Shown in pieces: positions 2,392-10,196 of a DNA stretch of 10,196 nucleotides. The DNA lies in assembly GCA_046760705.1 (NCBI GenBank), contig JBHIER010000079.1, positions 1 through 10,196 of the forward strand, in the 5' to 3' direction. This DNA comes from JBHIER01 sp046760705 [NCBI: bacterium] (GTDB lineage: Bacteria > JBHIER01 > G020348925). Numbering within the stretch: position 1 is the first letter of the stretch; the number at the start of each line of letters is the position of its first letter. The notes under the pieces were generated by a model. It was not told the DNA's origin, ran no database searches, and saw only the letters and a program-made list of their open reading frames with translations. A program made the translations under genes and the position numbers.

Positions 2392-3440
2392 TTGAGGAGA
2401 GGAAGACGGAGAAGTCTATCAATCTGGCTTCGAGGAATTGGAGCGGTTGTGGTCCTGGTCACTGCGGCCTGAGCTGCAGCCGCCCCTTGTCAGGATCGGC
2501 CCCGAATTCTCAGGCTGGGTGACCCTTTTCCAGAACTCTCCTTTCCCAACGTTCTGAACGACCAGGAACGGGCATATATCGGCCTCGGCGATGAGGAGAC
2601 CTTCTCCCTGAAAGAGATTGGGGTGGAGCTGGTGGTGGTGGAGTTTTTGAATAAGTACTGTTTCCCCTGCCAGGTGCAAGCACCGGTTTTCACTCTCGTC
2701 CATCGGGCCATCGAGGCCGATTCAGCCCTTCGAGAAAAGGTGAAATGAGGCGTACGATGCGGTGGGCAGCCCCAAGACCCCTTTCACGGTGCTGCTCAGA
2801 AAGGATAGAAAGGGAGGACCGATCGTGGCCAGTGCCCATCGTGGGGTCATTTACTCCGACAAAGGTTTTGTCGAGGAGATTCGGGCCGTCCTGCAATACG
2901 ACGTGAGTCTGCTCACTCTGAGACGTCCCTCCGAAGTGCCGATCCGGATCCGGGAGGAGATCAGACCCGCCTTGTCCGATGAGGAGTTGATCGATAAAGT
3001 AACAAAGTCGATGGAGGCCCCTGGGGGGAGCGTATTGAAAGTGAAAAAGGTCAACCTTCCTGAGACCGCACCTGTTTATGTGGGAACTATCGATACTGAA
3101 GGACGTCAGGAAAAGCGATTTGCGAAGATAGTCTCTCGAGCATCCTTCTGCGATGTCTGCCACGACATCCACTTCATATACGTATTTGATGAAGAGGGGG
3201 CTGTCCTTCGCTTCGATCCCGTGTACCTCACCAAGAGAGGCAATGTGGAATGGAGTGACGAAGACGTGAAGAAAATGAGAGATCGGCTCCAGGGCAGCTC
3301 GCTCTTAGGGGCCTTTGATTTTAATCCCCAAAGTCGATGCTGTGACATCTGCCACCATCAGTTCACAGCTCATATTCGTCAGTCTTAACGGGGCGAAAGC
3401 CCTCCTCAATGAACTTAAGGAGCAGGGATATGTGAGATAG
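2392..3440 (+). pseudogene. Decayed secreted thioredoxin-like / FMN-binding fusion protein (nonsense, deletion and frameshifts)
   Basis: I read one ancestral gene here across three frames. Frame A (from TTG 2392) gives a signal-peptide-like start, RRGRRRSLSIWLRGIGAVVVLVTAA, then TGA at 2470-2472, then AAAAPC and a thioredoxin fold opening with LGDPFPELSFPNVL. Its CxxC motif lies in VEFLNKYCFPCQVQAPVF (Cys codons at 2659 and 2668), and it stops at 2746. Frame B takes over at about 2744 with NEAYDAVGSPKTPFTVLLRKD, the usual C-terminal strand of such thioredoxins, and continues through a CDVCH motif (CxxCH) and HFIYVFDEEG. Frame C, one base off after the CCCCAAA run at 3326-3332, gives VDAVTSATISSQLIF, the FMN_bind-type signature, and ends at TAG 3440. 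From family memory, about 30-35 residues between REKVK and EAYDAVG are missing. A gene caller would report only 2762-3388 (208 codons, GTG start), whose last 19 residues are out of the ancestral frame. Function was probably periplasmic thiol or flavin redox chemistry. Confidence 0.8.
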
Positions 3441-3586: not shown

Positions 3587-4714
3587 ATGAAAAAGCTAAT
3601 GGTCTTATGTATTGTTGCTCTGATGGCTGCGTTTCTCGTCGCCAACACAACCTCTGCTCAGTTAGCCGAGGTGAAGGTGGGAAAAGGCGATCTCAAGATC
3701 GGGGCGATTTTGCAGGCAGGTTTCGATTATAGTTTAGCCGACGACGAGGGAAATGTGAACGCCCAGTTCACCCTGAACAGAGCCAGGTTGCTCTTTTGGG
3801 GAACGATCGTTCCTGACAAGGTAAAATACTTCGTCCAGACCGAGGCCAAACAGAAAATTGGGAGCTTTGCAACAGGTTTCGAGGGAGATACACTTAGTAC
3901 GAGTTTAGTTGAAGGCTCTGCAGTGACTACCCCTTACATTCTTGACTACAAGATGATCTTTCTCGGTTGCATTCCCAAGACGAGCATCACCGTGGGTCGG
4001 TTTCTCCCAAATTTCAGCCTCTACATGCCGGCTCCGACGTCAAAGCTGGACATGATCAACTACCCACTCTTCATCATCAATAGCGGATATAACTACGCCA
4101 TGTGGCGTCAGTCAGGTATTCAGACCGCGACCAAGACCGACTACGTCGATTTCAACGTGGGCATCTTTAACGGGCCGACGAACAACATGAATGACAACGA
4201 TGACGCCAAGGACGTCCTCCTGCGGGCCGGATTCAAACCTCAGACGGATTTTGCCAAAATAAAAGTTGGCGGATACGCCTGGTTAGGTAACCTCCTGCTG
4301 GCGGAAGATGCAGACCTGGCGTATAACAGATTTGGGTTCTTCGGTACTTTGAAGCACGAGCAGGCGACGGTCAACGCCGAATTTGTCATGGGGTCTGACG
4401 AGGATGGGTACACGCACTTGGTGGACTCGGAATTGGTCACCGAGGATCACAAGAGCATGGGGTTTTATGGTCATGTCGAGTATAAGGTAAATCCGGAGTT
4501 TGGGATTCTGGGCCGTTTCGATTACTTCGACCCGAACACCGGCGTGGATGACAACGCCTGGACCTGGGTCACCCTCGGTGTTAACCACTACATCGAGAGC
4601 TACAACGCCATGATCTATCTCAACTCCATCATGAAGCTCGAGCAGAACGACTGGGGTTCAACAGAGAAGATCAAAAACGACGTGATCCAGCTTCAGTTCC
4701 AGATCGCACCCTAA
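3587..4714 (+). CDS. Outer-membrane beta-barrel porin
   Basis: The 375-residue protein opens with a clear signal peptide: MKK, a hydrophobic core (LMVLCIVALMAAFLVA) and a cut probably after TTSA. The mature part alternates polar and aromatic residues as in beta-strands, for example ILQAGFDYSL, FTLNRARLLFWGTIVPDKVKYFVQTE and YHIES-like NHYIESYNAMIYLNSIM. It ends in VIQLQFQIAP, consistent with a last strand. The overall pattern recalls phosphate-selective (OprO/OprP-like) porins of delta-proteobacteria, but I cannot assign a substrate. It would sit as a trimeric or monomeric channel in the outer membrane. It is preceded by a strong ribosome binding site and a 146-bp gap after the decayed thioredoxin gene, so it is probably transcribed separately. 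No clear sigma70 or sigma54 promoter is visible in that gap. Confidence 0.82.
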   Translation: MKKLMVLCIVALMAAFLVANTTSAQLAEVKVGKGDLKIGAILQAGFDYSLADDEGNVNAQFTLNRARLLFWGTIVPDKVKYFVQTEAKQKIGSFATGFEGDTLSTSLVEGSAVTTPYILDYKMIFLGCIPKTSITVGRFLPNFSLYMPAPTSKLDMINYPLFIINSGYNYAMWRQSGIQTATKTDYVDFNVGIFNGPTNNMNDNDDAKDVLLRAGFKPQTDFAKIKVGGYAWLGNLLLAEDADLAYNRFGFFGTLKHEQATVNAEFVMGSDEDGYTHLVDSELVTEDHKSMGFYGHVEYKVNPEFGILGRFDYFDPNTGVDDNAWTWVTLGVNHYIESYNAMIYLNSIMKLEQNDWGSTEKIKNDVIQLQFQIAP

Positions 4715-5051: not shown

Positions 5052-5104
5052 CAAAATGATACTGATTGATTTTGAAATTTGCTGAGACAGGTATAAAAGG
5101 GCCC

Positions 5105-6739
5105 ATGAAATTTACGAGACTGCTCAGTTTTCGGCTTTTTCTTCTGATATTGGCGGTGATGGTCATCTTTTTCAGCCTTTATACCTACATTAATATCCGC
5201 GCTCACACCTCCCACCTCATGGAGAATGTGCTCCTGTCCGCCAACCGACTCAGTGATGTGATTAAGAGATCGACCCATTATAGTATGTTATTGAATCGCC
5301 GGGAAGATCTGTATCACACTATTCAGACCATCGGGAATGAGCCTGGTATTGACGGAATCAGGATTTATAACAAAAAAGGCGAGATTATGTTCTCCACCTT
5401 ACCTGGAGAAGCCGGGACCTCTGTCGATCTGCAGGCCGAGGCCTGTTACATCTGCCATGTCCAAGAACAGCCGCTCGAGGCCCTTCCGATAAAAAAGCGG
5501 TCTCGTATCTTCTCCTCACTCCAAGGCCATCGCGTCCTGGGCGTGATCAACCCCATAATGAACGAACCGGGATGTTACAAAGCAGAATGTCATGCCCATC
5601 AGCCAGCGCAAACTGTTCTTGGTGTTCTGGACGTGAAGATGTCTCTGCAGCAGATAGATGAACGGATCGCCAAAAGCAGAAGGGACATGATCTCCTATGC
5701 TGTTGTGCTGACCCTATTGATAGGCATACTTTCGGCCGGGTTCATCGTTATTATGGTCCACATCCCGGTAAAGAAACTCATTTTCGGGACTCGGGAGATC
5801 GCCAGCGGCAATCTCAATTACTCCATAGACCTCCGATCCCGCGATGAGATCGGCAGCCTCGCTCAGTCCTTCAATCTCATGACGCGCGATATCAAGAAAG
5901 CCCGGGACGAGATCACGCGGTGGTCCTCGACGCTGGAGCTTAAGGTGAAAGAGAAGACGGCGGAGTTGGAGAAGACGCAGGCCCACATAATTCAGATGGA
6001 AAAAATGGCCTCCATCGGAAAGCTTTCCGCCACCGTGGCCCATGAGATCAGCAACCCTCTGGCCGGAATACTCACTTACACAAAGCTGGTCCTGAAAATG
6101 CTAAAAAAGGATCGGTTGTCTCATGAGGAAGAGGAGTCGATGGAGAAGTACCTGACCTTCATCAAGAGTGAAACAGGGCGGTGCGGTGATATTGTCAAGA
6201 ATTTACTCCTTTTTTCCAAGAAGACCGGAGGCGATTTCCGCCGCGAGAGTCTCAATGCTATTGTCGATAAAAGCCTTCAACTGGTCAATCATCATCTTGA
6301 AATTCAAGGGGTAACGTTGGAGAAAGAGCTGAGCCCGGATGACGATGTTATCTTCTGTGATGCCAATCAATTGCAGCAGGCCTTCATCGCCCTTTTTGTC
6401 AACGGTGTGGAGGCCATGTCTAAAGGCGGCACGCTGAAGGTGAAAACGAGTTCCGCTGACGGAGATGACACTGTTCACATTTTCATTACGGACACCGGGC
6501 ACGGGATCCCTGAAGAGGTGAGACCGAACATCTTCGACCCGTTTTTCTCCACAAAAAGGGACGAAAAGCGCGTCGGATTGGGGCTGTCGGTGGTTTACGG
6601 CATCATTCAACGCCACGGCGGCTCCATCGATGTCAAATCCAAAGTCGATCAGGGAACCACCTTCACTATCTCCCTGCCCAGAGAAAGGCCCGAGAAAGGC
6701 TCTGAACGACTTCAACCAGAACAAGAGCCTGTTGGTTAA
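5105..6739 (+). CDS. Membrane sensor histidine kinase with extracytoplasmic c-type heme motifs
   Basis: The 544-residue kinase has a first membrane segment (about residues 8-28), a periplasmic sensor of about 165 residues, a second segment (about 195-218), HAMP (about 218-272), a coiled-coil linker, and HisKA and HATPase domains. The sensor carries C114-Y-I-C-H118 (CxxCH) and C157-YKAE-C162-H163 (CX4CH), then AHQPAQTVLGVLDV. These suggest covalent heme binding by the cytochrome c maturation system, hence redox or gas sensing. The phospho-accepting residue is H313 in ATVAHEISNPLAG. The ATP site shows VNGVEAM (N box), DTGHGIP (G1), FDPFFSTK (F) and VGLGLSVVYGI (G2), an NtrB/AtoS-like set. The first Asn of the usual N box (NLxxNA) is replaced by Ala, and the second is kept. 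I chose ATG 5105 because a TTG at 5066 adds 13 residues before the first membrane segment and sits against the promoter. The ribosome binding site is weak (AAAAGGG). The regulator gene follows at 15 bp. Confidence 0.9.
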   Translation: MKFTRLLSFRLFLLILAVMVIFFSLYTYINIRAHTSHLMENVLLSANRLSDVIKRSTHYSMLLNRREDLYHTIQTIGNEPGIDGIRIYNKKGEIMFSTLPGEAGTSVDLQAEACYICHVQEQPLEALPIKKRSRIFSSLQGHRVLGVINPIMNEPGCYKAECHAHQPAQTVLGVLDVKMSLQQIDERIAKSRRDMISYAVVLTLLIGILSAGFIVIMVHIPVKKLIFGTREIASGNLNYSIDLRSRDEIGSLAQSFNLMTRDIKKARDEITRWSSTLELKVKEKTAELEKTQAHIIQMEKMASIGKLSATVAHEISNPLAGILTYTKLVLKMLKKDRLSHEEEESMEKYLTFIKSETGRCGDIVKNLLLFSKKTGGDFRRESLNAIVDKSLQLVNHHLEIQGVTLEKELSPDDDVIFCDANQLQQAFIALFVNGVEAMSKGGTLKVKTSSADGDDTVHIFITDTGHGIPEEVRPNIFDPFFSTKRDEKRVGLGLSVVYGIIQRHGGSIDVKSKVDQGTTFTISLPRERPEKGSERLQPEQEPVG

Positions 6740-6754: not shown

Positions 6755-8098
6755 ATGGAGAACAGAGACGTTGGAATCCTGGTGGTGGATGATGAGCTCG
6801 TGGTGAGGGAATCTCTGTACAACTGGTTCAGAGAGGACGGCTATCGGGTCGACACGGCCGAAGATGCCAAGGCGGCCCTCAAAAAGTTACACCAGAGCTC
6901 CTGGGATATCGTGCTCTTAGATATAAAAATGCCTGGCATGGACGGGATGGAACTACAGAAGAGGATCAAGGAGATAGACGCAAACATCATCGTCATCATG
7001 ATCACCGCCTATGCGGCGGTGGACACGGCTGTTCAGGCATTGAAGGAAGGGGCCTTCGACTATGTGACCAAGCCTTTTGATCCGGATGACATGAGCCATC
7101 TCATCCGCAATGCCGTTGCCCAGCGGAAACTGACGACGGAGAATATTCAGCTCCGCCAGAAGATCGACGAGCTGTCGAAATTTGATGGGATCGTCGGCGA
7201 AAGCCTTTCAATGAAGCGGGTCTTTGAGCTGGTACACACGGTGGCCCAGTCCGACGCTACGGTGGTCATTCACGGTGAGAGCGGCACGGGCAAGGAGCTG
7301 GTGGCCCGGGCCATTCACAGCAACAGCCCGCGGCGCTACTTCCCCATCATTCCCGTCAACTGCGGGGCACTGCCTGAGGGGATATTGGAGAGTGAAATTT
7401 TCGGCCACGAGAAAGGGGCCTTCACTGGGGCCCAATACAGAAGAAAGGGGAAGTTGGAAATGGCTGACGGAGGCACGCTCTTCTTGGACGAAATCTCCAA
7501 CATCGGTATGAAAACCCAGATGGATCTGCTCAGGGTGCTGGAGACGAAGAAATTCACCAGGTTGGGAGGAAGTCAGGAGATCACTGTCGATTTTCGGGTC
7601 GTCTGTGCCACCAACCAGAACCTGGAAAAGATGGTCGAAGAGGGTACCTTTCGTGAGGATCTCTACTATCGCATCAACGTTTTCGCTATTCATCTGCCTC
7701 CCCTGCGGGAACGGCAATCGGACATCCCGCTCCTGGCTCAGCATTTTGTTAAAAAATATGCCCTGGCCATGAACAAGCAGATCGCGGAGATCTCCCCGGA
7801 GGCCATGGATTTGCTTGTCCGATACGATTGGCCGGGAAACGTAAGGGAGCTGGAAAACGCCATCGAACGGGCCATGGTGGTTGGCAAACCGCCTCGCATC
7901 AACCCCACGGATCTGCCGTTTCAACTGAGCAGCAAGAAGGCGGTCCCTGCGGCTGATTCCTTAGAGGAGGTTGAGAAAACTCATATCTTAAACGTACTGG
8001 AGCGTATGGGTTGGAACATCTCCCGTTCGGCTGAGATCCTCAAGATCGATCGAGTGACCCTGTACAACAAGATAAAAAAATACGACTTACAGAAATAG
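6755..8098 (+). CDS. NtrC-family sigma54-dependent response regulator
   Basis: The 447-residue protein is the evident partner of the kinase. The receiver domain (1-120) has acidic D12/D13, phospho-acceptor D56 (LLDIKMPGMDG), T84 and K106. The AAA+ domain has Walker A GESGTGKE (174-181), the sigma54-contacting GAFTGA loop (221-226), Walker B LFLDE (D245, E246), and WPGNVRELENAIERA in the sensor II region. A Fis-type helix-turn-helix closes it (GWNISRSAEILKIDRVTLYNKIKKY). All residues needed for activation appear intact. It should bind upstream enhancer sites when phosphorylated and hydrolyse ATP to open sigma54 promoters. Its AAGGAG site (6738-6743) overlaps the kinase stop codon, with 11 bases to the ATG, so the two are translated from one message. 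Its targets cannot be read from this window with confidence. Confidence 0.96.
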   Translation: MENRDVGILVVDDELVVRESLYNWFREDGYRVDTAEDAKAALKKLHQSSWDIVLLDIKMPGMDGMELQKRIKEIDANIIVIMITAYAAVDTAVQALKEGAFDYVTKPFDPDDMSHLIRNAVAQRKLTTENIQLRQKIDELSKFDGIVGESLSMKRVFELVHTVAQSDATVVIHGESGTGKELVARAIHSNSPRRYFPIIPVNCGALPEGILESEIFGHEKGAFTGAQYRRKGKLEMADGGTLFLDEISNIGMKTQMDLLRVLETKKFTRLGGSQEITVDFRVVCATNQNLEKMVEEGTFREDLYYRINVFAIHLPPLRERQSDIPLLAQHFVKKYALAMNKQIAEISPEAMDLLVRYDWPGNVRELENAIERAMVVGKPPRINPTDLPFQLSSKKAVPAADSLEEVEKTHILNVLERMGWNISRSAEILKIDRVTLYNKIKKYDLQK

Positions 8099-8121: not shown

Positions 8122-8658
8122 ATGTCTTCCCTATATGTGGTCCCTATCAAATTGTCAAAGGATTTGCTGCTTCCGCCTCTTCGGGAAAGAATTTTGAATA
8201 CCTTTCATATAGAGACGAAGATTGGCGCTTTTTCGATCGATCCCTCCTCCGGTTACGACTCCTCCCGAAATCAATACAACTCCTCAGCTCTTTTGGCTGA
8301 ATTGATTGCGACACAACCTAAAGACACCCTTCGAATTTTGGGAGTAGCCGATCTCGATCTGTTCGTCCCTGTGCTCACTTTCGTATTCGGCGAGGCTCAA
8401 CTCAACGGTCCGGCCGCAGTCGTCTCGATCCACCGGCTGAAGAATCAATTCTATGGGCTGCCTAAAGATGAGAGATTGCTTCAAGAGCGATTGGAGAAGG
8501 AGGCCATCCATGAGCTCGGCCACACCTTCGGTCTCCTCCACTGCCGGGATGATAGCTGTGTTATGAGCGCATCCACGTACGTCGAAAACATCGATCTGAA
8601 ATCCGACAGGTTCTGCTTCTCTTGCAGTAAGATCCTCAATGGGAGGAAGGATCCATGA
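8122..8658 (+). CDS. amzA: Archaemetzincin-type zinc metalloprotease (peptidase family M54)
   Basis: The 178-residue protein has the full archaemetzincin signature: H130-E-L-G-H134-TFGLL-H140 as the HExxHxxGxxH catalytic zinc site, followed directly by C141-RDDS-C146-VM. The later cysteines are C165 and C168 (FCFSC). M148 is the metzincin Met, and the four cysteines form the family's structural zinc site. The N-terminus, LYVVPIKLSKDLLLPPLRERI, is also family-like, and the length matches the small prokaryotic members. There is no signal peptide, so it should be cytoplasmic. It lies 23 bp after the regulator gene without a promoter between, so it is probably co-transcribed. No good ribosome binding site precedes the ATG (the region reads CCACCAAATCATTT), so translation may be weak or coupled. 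The physiological substrate of prokaryotic members is unknown to me. Confidence 0.93.
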   Translation: MSSLYVVPIKLSKDLLLPPLRERILNTFHIETKIGAFSIDPSSGYDSSRNQYNSSALLAELIATQPKDTLRILGVADLDLFVPVLTFVFGEAQLNGPAAVVSIHRLKNQFYGLPKDERLLQERLEKEAIHELGHTFGLLHCRDDSCVMSASTYVENIDLKSDRFCFSCSKILNGRKDP

Positions 8659-8876: not shown

Positions 8877-8972
8877 ATGAAAAGAACAATCATTGTCCAC
8901 TGGGATTTTGGTCATTGGAAGTTGTTTCGGATTTCGATATTCGAATTTCGGATTTATACCTCGTCGGTTTGA
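8877..8972 (+). pseudogene. Probable 5' stub of the interrupted secreted-protein gene
   Basis: The ATG at 8877 opens a 31-codon frame beginning MKRTIIV, like the first residues of a signal peptide. The frame enters the AT-rich repeat after about 5-7 codons and ends at TGA 8970. It lies downstream of a good promoter. I infer that it is the original start region of the gene whose tail resumes at 9010. The alternative is a chance short ORF. Confidence 0.4.
8891..8957. repeat. AT-rich dispersed intergenic repeat (TTCGGATTT-type)
   Basis: The stretch contains GATTTTGGTCATTGGAA followed by two copies of TTTCGGATTT (8925-8934 and 8946-8955) around ATATTCGAAT. On the reverse strand it reads AAATCCGAAATTCGAATATC, a pattern I recognise from many Desulfobacterota and other environmental genomes, where its spurious translation resembles SEIRISKSETTSNDQNP. 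Base composition differs sharply from the flanks. The exact ends are my estimate. Confidence 0.6.
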
Positions 8973-9036
8973 GGCGAAGCTTCGCTATGAAGAGGCGGTG
9001 AGGGGTTAGGTTACTGTTGTCAGAGACGGTGGGGAG

Positions 9037-10196
9037 ATGACCGATACGGTCGTCATTGATCAGGCATATCAGTCCATCAACATTACTGTTGATGGTTTGC
9101 CCACCGAGGTACTCCTCGACAGAGACAACTGGATCTTGAAAGAGGTGACACACATCACCACCCCTCTCGTTTCATGCACAGACTATTCCATTAACGATGA
9201 AACCGGCAACACTAACGGTGTACCCGACCCGGGAGAACAAGTCGATCTTGTGGTGATGTTGCTCAACACCGGGATGGAAGCCACAGGCCTTGCAGCCTCC
9301 ATATCGACTCAGGATCCGGATGTTGACATCGTCGACGGGACAGCGGAGTTTGGAAGTCTGGGTTACGGTCAAACAGCCTCGAACGGGGATGATCCCATCG
9401 TCTTCGAAGTCGATGCCGAGGCCAAGAGCAAAGTGGTTCTTTTTGTGATGTCCATCACGGCTGATGGCGGATACAGTATGAGCGATAGCATCTATATCAC
9501 CATCGGCCCGGCCACCATCCTGGTGGTTGATGATGACTTAGGGGAGGAGTATGAAGAGTATTACACAGATGGGCTTTTTCTCTCCTACCCCTTCGACCTG
9601 TGGGAGGTTGCGACCAAAGGGGTCCCATCGGAGACACTCTTCTATTATGAAGCCGTGGTCTGGTTGACCGGCGATGAGAGGACATCGACGCTCACCTCTG
9701 AGGAACAGACGGCCCTCAAGCAGTACCTTGACGGCGGTGGCCACCTGTTCGTCACAGGGCAGGATATGGGCTACGATCTGGTGGAGACCGGTTCGGCTGA
9801 AGATGCGGGCTTCTATCGGGATTACCTCCACGCGGAATATGTGAGTGATGTGTCGCCTGATAATATTTTGTCCGGGGTAAGTGGTGATCCCATCTCCGAC
9901 GATGTCTCATATCTGAGTCTGGCTGCTGGCGGTGCAGATAATCAGGATTCACCCAGCATCATTGAGCCGCTTTCGGGAGCCAGCAGTGTCTTCACGTATC
10001 ATCCCTCCGGTACCACGGCTGGCATTAAATACGCCGCCGAATACAGGATGGTCTACTTCGCTTTCGGCTACGAAGGCGTCGGTGATTTTGGGACGGACCA
10101 CGCTAAAAGACGGGCCTCCATCATGGACAATGTCATCAAGTGGTTTCGGTACGTTCCTCAGAAAGGCGATGTCAATGAGGATGGCGAGGTGAATGT
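9037..10196 (+). CDS. Secreted multidomain protein, M1-peptidase-like tail + Ig-like + glutamine-amidotransferase-like + dockerin; N-terminally truncated, runs off window
   Basis: The frame is open from 9010 (after TAG 9007) to the window end. The first ATG is 9037, with GGGGAG directly abutting it, which is too close for normal initiation. The first 40 residues (TDTVVIDQAYQSINITVDGLPTEVLLD, then NWILKEV) match the C-terminal end of M1-type aminopeptidase domains, so the catalytic part is missing. An Ig-like segment follows (about 44-155) with NDETGNTNGVPDPGEQVDLV. Next is a class I glutamine-amidotransferase-like fold (about 158-372): ATILVVDDD, YYEAVVWLTGDE, YLDGGGHLFVTGQDMGYDL and MVYFAFGYEGV. 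At the edge GDVNEDGEVN (377-386) is the first calcium loop of a type I dockerin. Family members are secreted and large. This copy has no signal peptide of its own and is probably a degraded gene, though the remaining frame is uninterrupted for almost 1.2 kb. Confidence 0.75.
   Translation, partial: MTDTVVIDQAYQSINITVDGLPTEVLLDRDNWILKEVTHITTPLVSCTDYSINDETGNTNGVPDPGEQVDLVVMLLNTGMEATGLAASISTQDPDVDIVDGTAEFGSLGYGQTASNGDDPIVFEVDAEAKSKVVLFVMSITADGGYSMSDSIYITIGPATILVVDDDLGEEYEEYYTDGLFLSYPFDLWEVATKGVPSETLFYYEAVVWLTGDERTSTLTSEEQTALKQYLDGGGHLFVTGQDMGYDLVETGSAEDAGFYRDYLHAEYVSDVSPDNILSGVSGDPISDDVSYLSLAAGGADNQDSPSIIEPLSGASSVFTYHPSGTTAGIKYAAEYRMVYFAFGYEGVGDFGTDHAKRRASIMDNVIKWFRYVPQKGDVNEDGEVN

Follow-up and report, generated by a model that had tools for sequence, protein, structure and literature searches.

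A probable pseudogene next to formate dehydrogenase genes, with intact relatives that join a thioredoxin to an RnfG/NqrC-type domain

The window analysed here, a stretch of 10,196 nucleotides in all, begins inside formate dehydrogenase genes. The 3′ part of an FdnG-type fdhA lies at positions 2 to 1576 of the plus strand (NCBIfam TIGR01553, E = 3e-204 over the portion present here), and fdhB, for the iron-sulfur subunit, follows on the same strand at 1581 to 2366 (TIGR01582, E = 9.9e-55, under the cut-off of that model). After 25 bases comes a broken gene (2392 to 3440), and then a plus-strand porin-like gene (3587 to 4714) with a weak match to Pfam BBP2 (E = 0.0019, 17.9 against 26.2 bits). 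We compared this region with two loci in other genomes: L001, in the Gemmatimonadota MAG bin29 (CP070758.1, genome G001), and L002, in a B38 MAG (genome G002). The identities to L001 are 455/524 for fdhA, 211/259 for fdhB, and 210/336 for the porin-like gene, which is syntenic with L001:6893-7939.

The broken gene runs through three frames of the plus strand. An earlier sequence-only reading had proposed that they spell one protein, and translation of the window placed every feature it named within 2392 to 3440 where it had been reported. The frame at 2392 begins with a signal-peptide-like stretch, LRRGRRRSLSIWLRGIGAVVVLVTAA (2392 to 2469), for which a TTG start is proposed, the start codon being inferred. 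Its best 15-residue hydropathy is 2.13, and its position matches the hydrophobic N terminus of L001. This frame is open until the TGA at 2746 to 2748, past one in-frame TGA described below. The piece at 2473 to 2745 resembles the N-terminal part of a ResA/TlpA-type thioredoxin domain and contains CFPC (2659 to 2670); its Pfam matches are weak and below cut-off (Thioredoxin, E = 0.0021; AhpC-TSA, E = 0.0045), and it is identical to L001 at 60/87 residues. The frame at 2744 is open until the TAA at 3386 to 3388. Its piece (2744 to 3328; 147/193 identical to L001) comprises the rest of the thioredoxin with SPKTPFTVLL (2768 to 2797), a linker, and, judged from the fold of the L001 domain, the first part of an RnfG/NqrC-like domain with CDVCH (3149 to 3163). 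It matched zero Pfam families at E values up to 1. The frame at 3330 supplies the C-terminal part (3333 to 3440; 24/35 identical), with the flavinylation-like motif DAVTSATISS (3336 to 3365) and a TAG stop (3438 to 3440).

The two homologues came from a scan of a genome collection described as covering 84,980 species, with six exact 8-residue patterns taken from the middle piece of the window gene. The scan gave 71 stretches, 3 relatives, and 2 distinct loci; exact patterns of this kind reach close relatives only and say little about how far the fusion has spread. L001 has one uninterrupted open reading frame (ORF) (5518 to 6696; 392 aa, the true start possibly lying a few codons further in), and L002 has one ORF of 380 aa (761 to 1903). 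The two are 41% identical. Neither match contains an internal stop, and all three window pieces are present in the same order in both ORFs. The proposal that one gene spans the three frames is thus borne out by the single L001 ORF and by a second intact homologue. Homologues ending at the same internal stops, and unrelated families for the separate segments, were looked for and not seen. A view of the pieces as three unrelated short genes, adjacent by chance, draws on their falling below Pfam cut-offs one by one and on the middle piece having no family, and is refuted by the two single ORFs that hold them in order, so that we give it practically no credence. Viral contigs yielded 0 relatives, both with the L001 protein as query (4 stretches) and with the alignment as query (87 stretches), and the plasmids searched for fusion homologues gave none at 1e-5.

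Several lines of evidence point to a ResA/TlpA-type thioredoxin in the N-terminal half. In a PDB sequence search, residues 82 to 188 of L001 matched ResA (best E = 5.3e-5). The full-length L001 model is weak (pLDDT 51.7). Foldseek rows for this model were led by ResA (3c73, probability 0.98, E = 4.7e-3), with no row at E < 0.001; they also included further thioredoxins and peroxiredoxins, the RnfG rows 8rb9_G and 8ahx_G (probability 0.99), and some unrelated low-probability entries such as 8h5y (0.10) and 1g7c (0.10). The Foldseek output does not list matched residues, and the two halves were assigned from the PDB sequence search and the VIA alignment. The predicted domain shares with ResA/TlpA-type oxidoreductases the CxxC pair (CFPC in the window, CFHC in L001, and CTSC in L002), the hydrophobic N terminus, and a TPFT strand, which we take to be the cis-Pro position of thioredoxins. 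Against AhpC-TSA (PF00578), L001 scored 26.1 for a cut-off of 26 bits, and L002 scored 20.3. However, the fusion lies far under the cut-off of the ResA subfamily (PRK03147/NF002854; 21.9 and 23 against 170 bits), and it differs from these proteins in carrying a second, C-terminal domain. Part of the thioredoxin core is lost in the window.

The C-terminal half is clearly, by predicted fold and motif, a domain of the RnfG/NqrC FMN-binding type. When the L001 domain was predicted alone (163 residues, 4 rows), pLDDT rose to 83.6. RnfG took the first and second Foldseek rows (probability 1.00; E = 1.6e-3 and 5.0e-3), and no row fell below E = 1e-3. In VIA-align, run on 999 chains preselected by Foldseek, the first 16 rows were all RnfG/NqrC (Z 11.2 to 8.3, rmsd 3.2 to 4.0, 130 to 147 residues), and the next row had a Z of 6.3. 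Also shared with this family are the attachment-motif residues Asp and Thr. In contrast, the motif has lost its Gly, a CxxCH has been added, and the Pfam scores fall short of the 22-bit cut-off of FMN_bind (PF04205): L002 reached 14.4 bits, the C-terminal window piece 15.1 bits (E = 0.037, over residues 1 to 17 of the piece), and L001 was unlisted at E values up to 0.1. A PDB profile search with the domain alignment did not find RnfG/NqrC and returned one irrelevant row (E = 1.2). No Rnf or Nqr genes were recognised among the scanned neighbours of the fusion. A thioredoxin and an FMN_bind-type domain in one gene, as the sequence-only reading had it, therefore find support in the ResA sequence and fold match, the RnfG/NqrC fold, and the intact ORFs. 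The fusion is a new pairing of known modules. Our literature search, which covered titles and the starts of abstracts and left most subscription journals outside, found no thioredoxin-FMN_bind fusion.

In L001 the gene order is fdhA, fdhB, a mobA-like gene, fdhD, fdhE, the fusion, the porin-like gene, a cytochrome c554-type gene, and a multiheme/cytochrome b561 gene. In the window it is fdhA (3′ part), fdhB, the broken fusion, and the porin-like gene. The mobA-like gene, fdhD, and fdhE are absent at 2364 to 2392, having been either lost in the lineage of the window or added in that of L001. The sequence-only reading had advised a look for intact copies next to fdhAB in related genomes, and the L001 fusion lies three genes downstream of fdhAB. 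In G001, FdhA (L007, minus strand, start at 3626; G001:C1:4228617-4231619) is complete; its N terminus is of the twin-arginine type and its frame contains a single internal TGA, so that by the usual reading it would be an exported selenoprotein. The link to formate dehydrogenase holds in the window and L001 and is not general. In G002 the fusion is on contig C6, and the FdnG model has just one match, a weak one on C40 that reaches 30.3 of the required 814.2 bits; an FdnG-type formate dehydrogenase over the cut-off was not found.

We then considered the cofactors. The review PMC12052999 gives the ApbE attachment motif as D-x-x-[S/T]-G-A-[S/T]. The fusion has DAVTSAT in the window and L001 and DAVSRAT in L002, so that Gly is replaced (by S, S, and R) while Asp and the acceptor Thr remain. 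For a fumarate reductase, the same review reports about 50% flavinylation after a Gly-to-Ala change in the motif; attachment to the fusion would therefore be possible and not assured. A C-x2-C-H-x2-H pattern, with CDVCH or CDICH, is kept in 3/3 sequences (CDICHDIH in L002). The ApbE family was found in 1/2 genomes (G001), as were the PF01578 (CcsA-type), ResB, and cytochrome c554 families. ApbE, Pfam FMN_bind, CcsA-type PF01578, ResB, and cytochrome c554 were not found in G002, a MAG in which rpoB is present and which may be incomplete. The DsbD_TM family (DsbD/CcdA-type transporters) was found in 2/2 genomes, so that a thiol electron donor would be at hand in both. By gene content, a heme at the CxxCH is possible in G001 and doubtful in G002, and a metal site or a second thiol pair at C-x2-C-H-x2-H is a fair alternative. 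Flavin, heme, and formate dehydrogenase thus appear not to be fixed companions of the fusion, with the reservation that the G002 MAG may be incomplete. Of the thiol, heme, and flavin chemistry suggested earlier, the domain pair stands, the heme is putative, and the flavin is weakened by the motif without Gly and by the failure to find ApbE in G002.

These data leave room for a protein that works differently from the one we favour, although the identity of the gene would be the same. The fusion could be a thiol or metal chaperone or reductase whose C-terminal domain has lost its flavin, with C-x2-C-H-x2-H serving as a metal site or as a second disulfide. The replaced glycine in 3/3 sequences is consistent with this, as is G002, in which neither ApbE nor the tested heme-assembly families were detected, yet L002 keeps CDICHDIH, Asp, and Thr. 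However, Asp and the acceptor Thr persist in 3/3 sequences, G001 has ApbE and cytochrome c assembly families, and the RnfG/NqrC fold is clear. We regard loss of flavin binding as a tentative reading that is well worth keeping in mind, while the balance tips against it.

Three disabling lesions separate the window copy from its relatives. The first is the in-frame TGA in the signal peptide region (2470 to 2472), seen by translation and by alignment to L001. The second, at 2743 to 2748, is a junction at which a net 95 bases are missing relative to L001 near 2745 and the frame changes (DNA alignment and three-way protein alignment). A stretch of 33 L001 residues, from MIGVGAGN to DADFV, between DRVK and AYDAVG, has no counterpart in the window and is present in L002. 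The third is the CCCCAAA run at 3326 to 3332, which by DNA alignment has one base more than L001 and again changes the frame. The claim that the three frames give one coherent protein therefore needs qualifying. There is one gene and its features are in place; however, joining the frames does not restore a complete thioredoxin, because the first frame change goes with the net 95-base loss, and there is the extra TGA at 2470 to 2472. Reading this TGA as a residue was considered and rejected; TGA also ends fdhA and the ORF at 8122 to 8658.

We asked how long the gene had been under selection. Differences between the window and L001 fall at 65, 43, and 171 first, second, and third codon positions over 315 codons, against 39, 27, and 117 over 259 codons in fdhB and 53, 36, and 217 over 524 codons in fdhA. 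NG86 dN/dS values (window versus L001) were 0.15 for the first of the three pieces (A) and 0.22 for the last (C), compared with 0.07 for fdhA and 0.08 for fdhB. YN00 values and some NG86 values, including that of piece B, could not be computed, so the codon-position counts carry the argument. The fusion gene thus appears to be under looser constraint than fdhAB, with dN/dS still well under 1. With L002 as the third sequence, 116 gap-free sites were alike in all; the window alone had changed at 16, L001 alone at 12, and L002 alone at 114. The 16 and 12 changes do not differ measurably (chi-square 0.57), and the window copy is therefore not measurably faster than L001. The codon-position pattern and these counts together suggest long purifying selection followed by recent loss. 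The damage looks recent relative to the split from L001, or partly technical.

The lesions would be wholly technical if the gene were alive and its defects were sequencing or assembly errors. In favour of this, substitutions still follow the pattern of a gene under constraint, and one of the lesions amounts to one base in a C/A run, an error-prone type of sequence. However, there are three lesions in one gene, one of them a net 95-base loss where both homologues keep the sequence, which is not a typical read error, and fdhA (part), fdhB, the porin-like gene, the kinase, the regulator, and the archaemetzincin all have open frames. We consider a living gene unlikely. Far less probable is programmed recoding, by frameshifting or stop read-through, that would yield the full protein: slips are known at runs of the CCC-C type, and a +1 slip at 3326 to 3329 would continue the frame, but the L001 and L002 ORFs read straight through, and the sequence missing at the first frame change, kept by both homologues, led us to reject it. 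The region 2392 to 3440 is most likely a pseudogene, although damage in the assembly is possible, and its protein would no longer be made whole in the organism of the window.

Taken together, we think it probable that the window holds a recently inactivated single gene for an exported thioredoxin plus RnfG/NqrC-type protein with the following redox mechanism. The encoded chain would start with a signal or anchor and continue with a ResA/TlpA-type thioredoxin that carries CxxC and an RnfG/NqrC-type domain with an unusual CxxCH and DAVTSAT/DAVSRAT. In an intact copy, a CcdA/DsbD-type membrane thiol transporter, or else envelope substrates, would supply electrons to the CxxC pair, which would exchange them with the C-terminal domain. 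A flavin there, covalent or not, could then convert the two-electron chemistry of thiols into one-electron steps towards envelope partners; we infer this direction of flow. Within a formate dehydrogenase cluster, the protein might act in electron transfer, or help to assemble and repair the exported enzyme and its cytochromes. A bolder form would place three redox centres in one exported chain (a disulfide, heme c at the CxxCH, and covalent FMN) and have them directly connect the thiol pool of the envelope to the formate/quinone/cytochrome chain. We judge it improbable. Our search of titles and abstract starts, with most subscription journals outside its coverage, found no envelope-thiol to formate/quinone/cytochrome bridge of such a kind.

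The nearest published idea that we found, in Meheust et al. 2021 (PMC8238504), is a hybrid thioredoxin/flavinylation system in which a thioredoxin-like protein is proposed to cooperate with an ApbE substrate, DsbD supplying the electrons. As in those clusters, the fusion pairs thiol and flavin-type modules. However, the clusters described there consist of separate proteins (DUF3570, thioredoxin-like, and DUF4266), whereas the fusion is one polypeptide with another flavin-type domain, and in L001 and the window it lies near formate dehydrogenase. The same paper treats thioredoxin-like proteins and flavinylated carriers as side-by-side mediators of extracytosolic electron transfer. Both kinds of domain in one chain suggest that the two could be coupled, and they offer a single small target in which to measure this. 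Row 17 of the full-model Foldseek list was a weak match (probability 0.60) to PDB 4eo3, a peroxiredoxin-nitroreductase fusion. By its title, it also has thiol and flavin domains in one chain; its flavin part is a nitroreductase and not an RnfG-type domain. Because the two domains of the fusion score below their Pfam cut-offs or only just reach them, and the window copy is in pieces, the pair could easily escape automatic annotation.

Further downstream, the window encodes a histidine kinase (5066 to 6739) whose N-terminal part contains CYICH and CYKAECHAH, followed by a sigma-54 response regulator (6755 to 8098). From these motifs, the kinase, which is close to the porin-like and fdh genes, is possibly an envelope sensor of the heme type. 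An intact archaemetzincin lies at 8122 to 8658 (NF033823, 164.2 bits against a cut-off of 145). An AT-rich, repeat-like stretch, GATTTCGATATTCGAATTTCGGATTT (8930 to 8955), is present in a single copy within the window, upstream of an ORF without a clear start (9010 to 10196) that has a weak DUF4159 match under the cut-off. This ORF may be a 5′-truncated gene; if so, the window would hold two broken genes, in keeping with general decay or a rough assembly.
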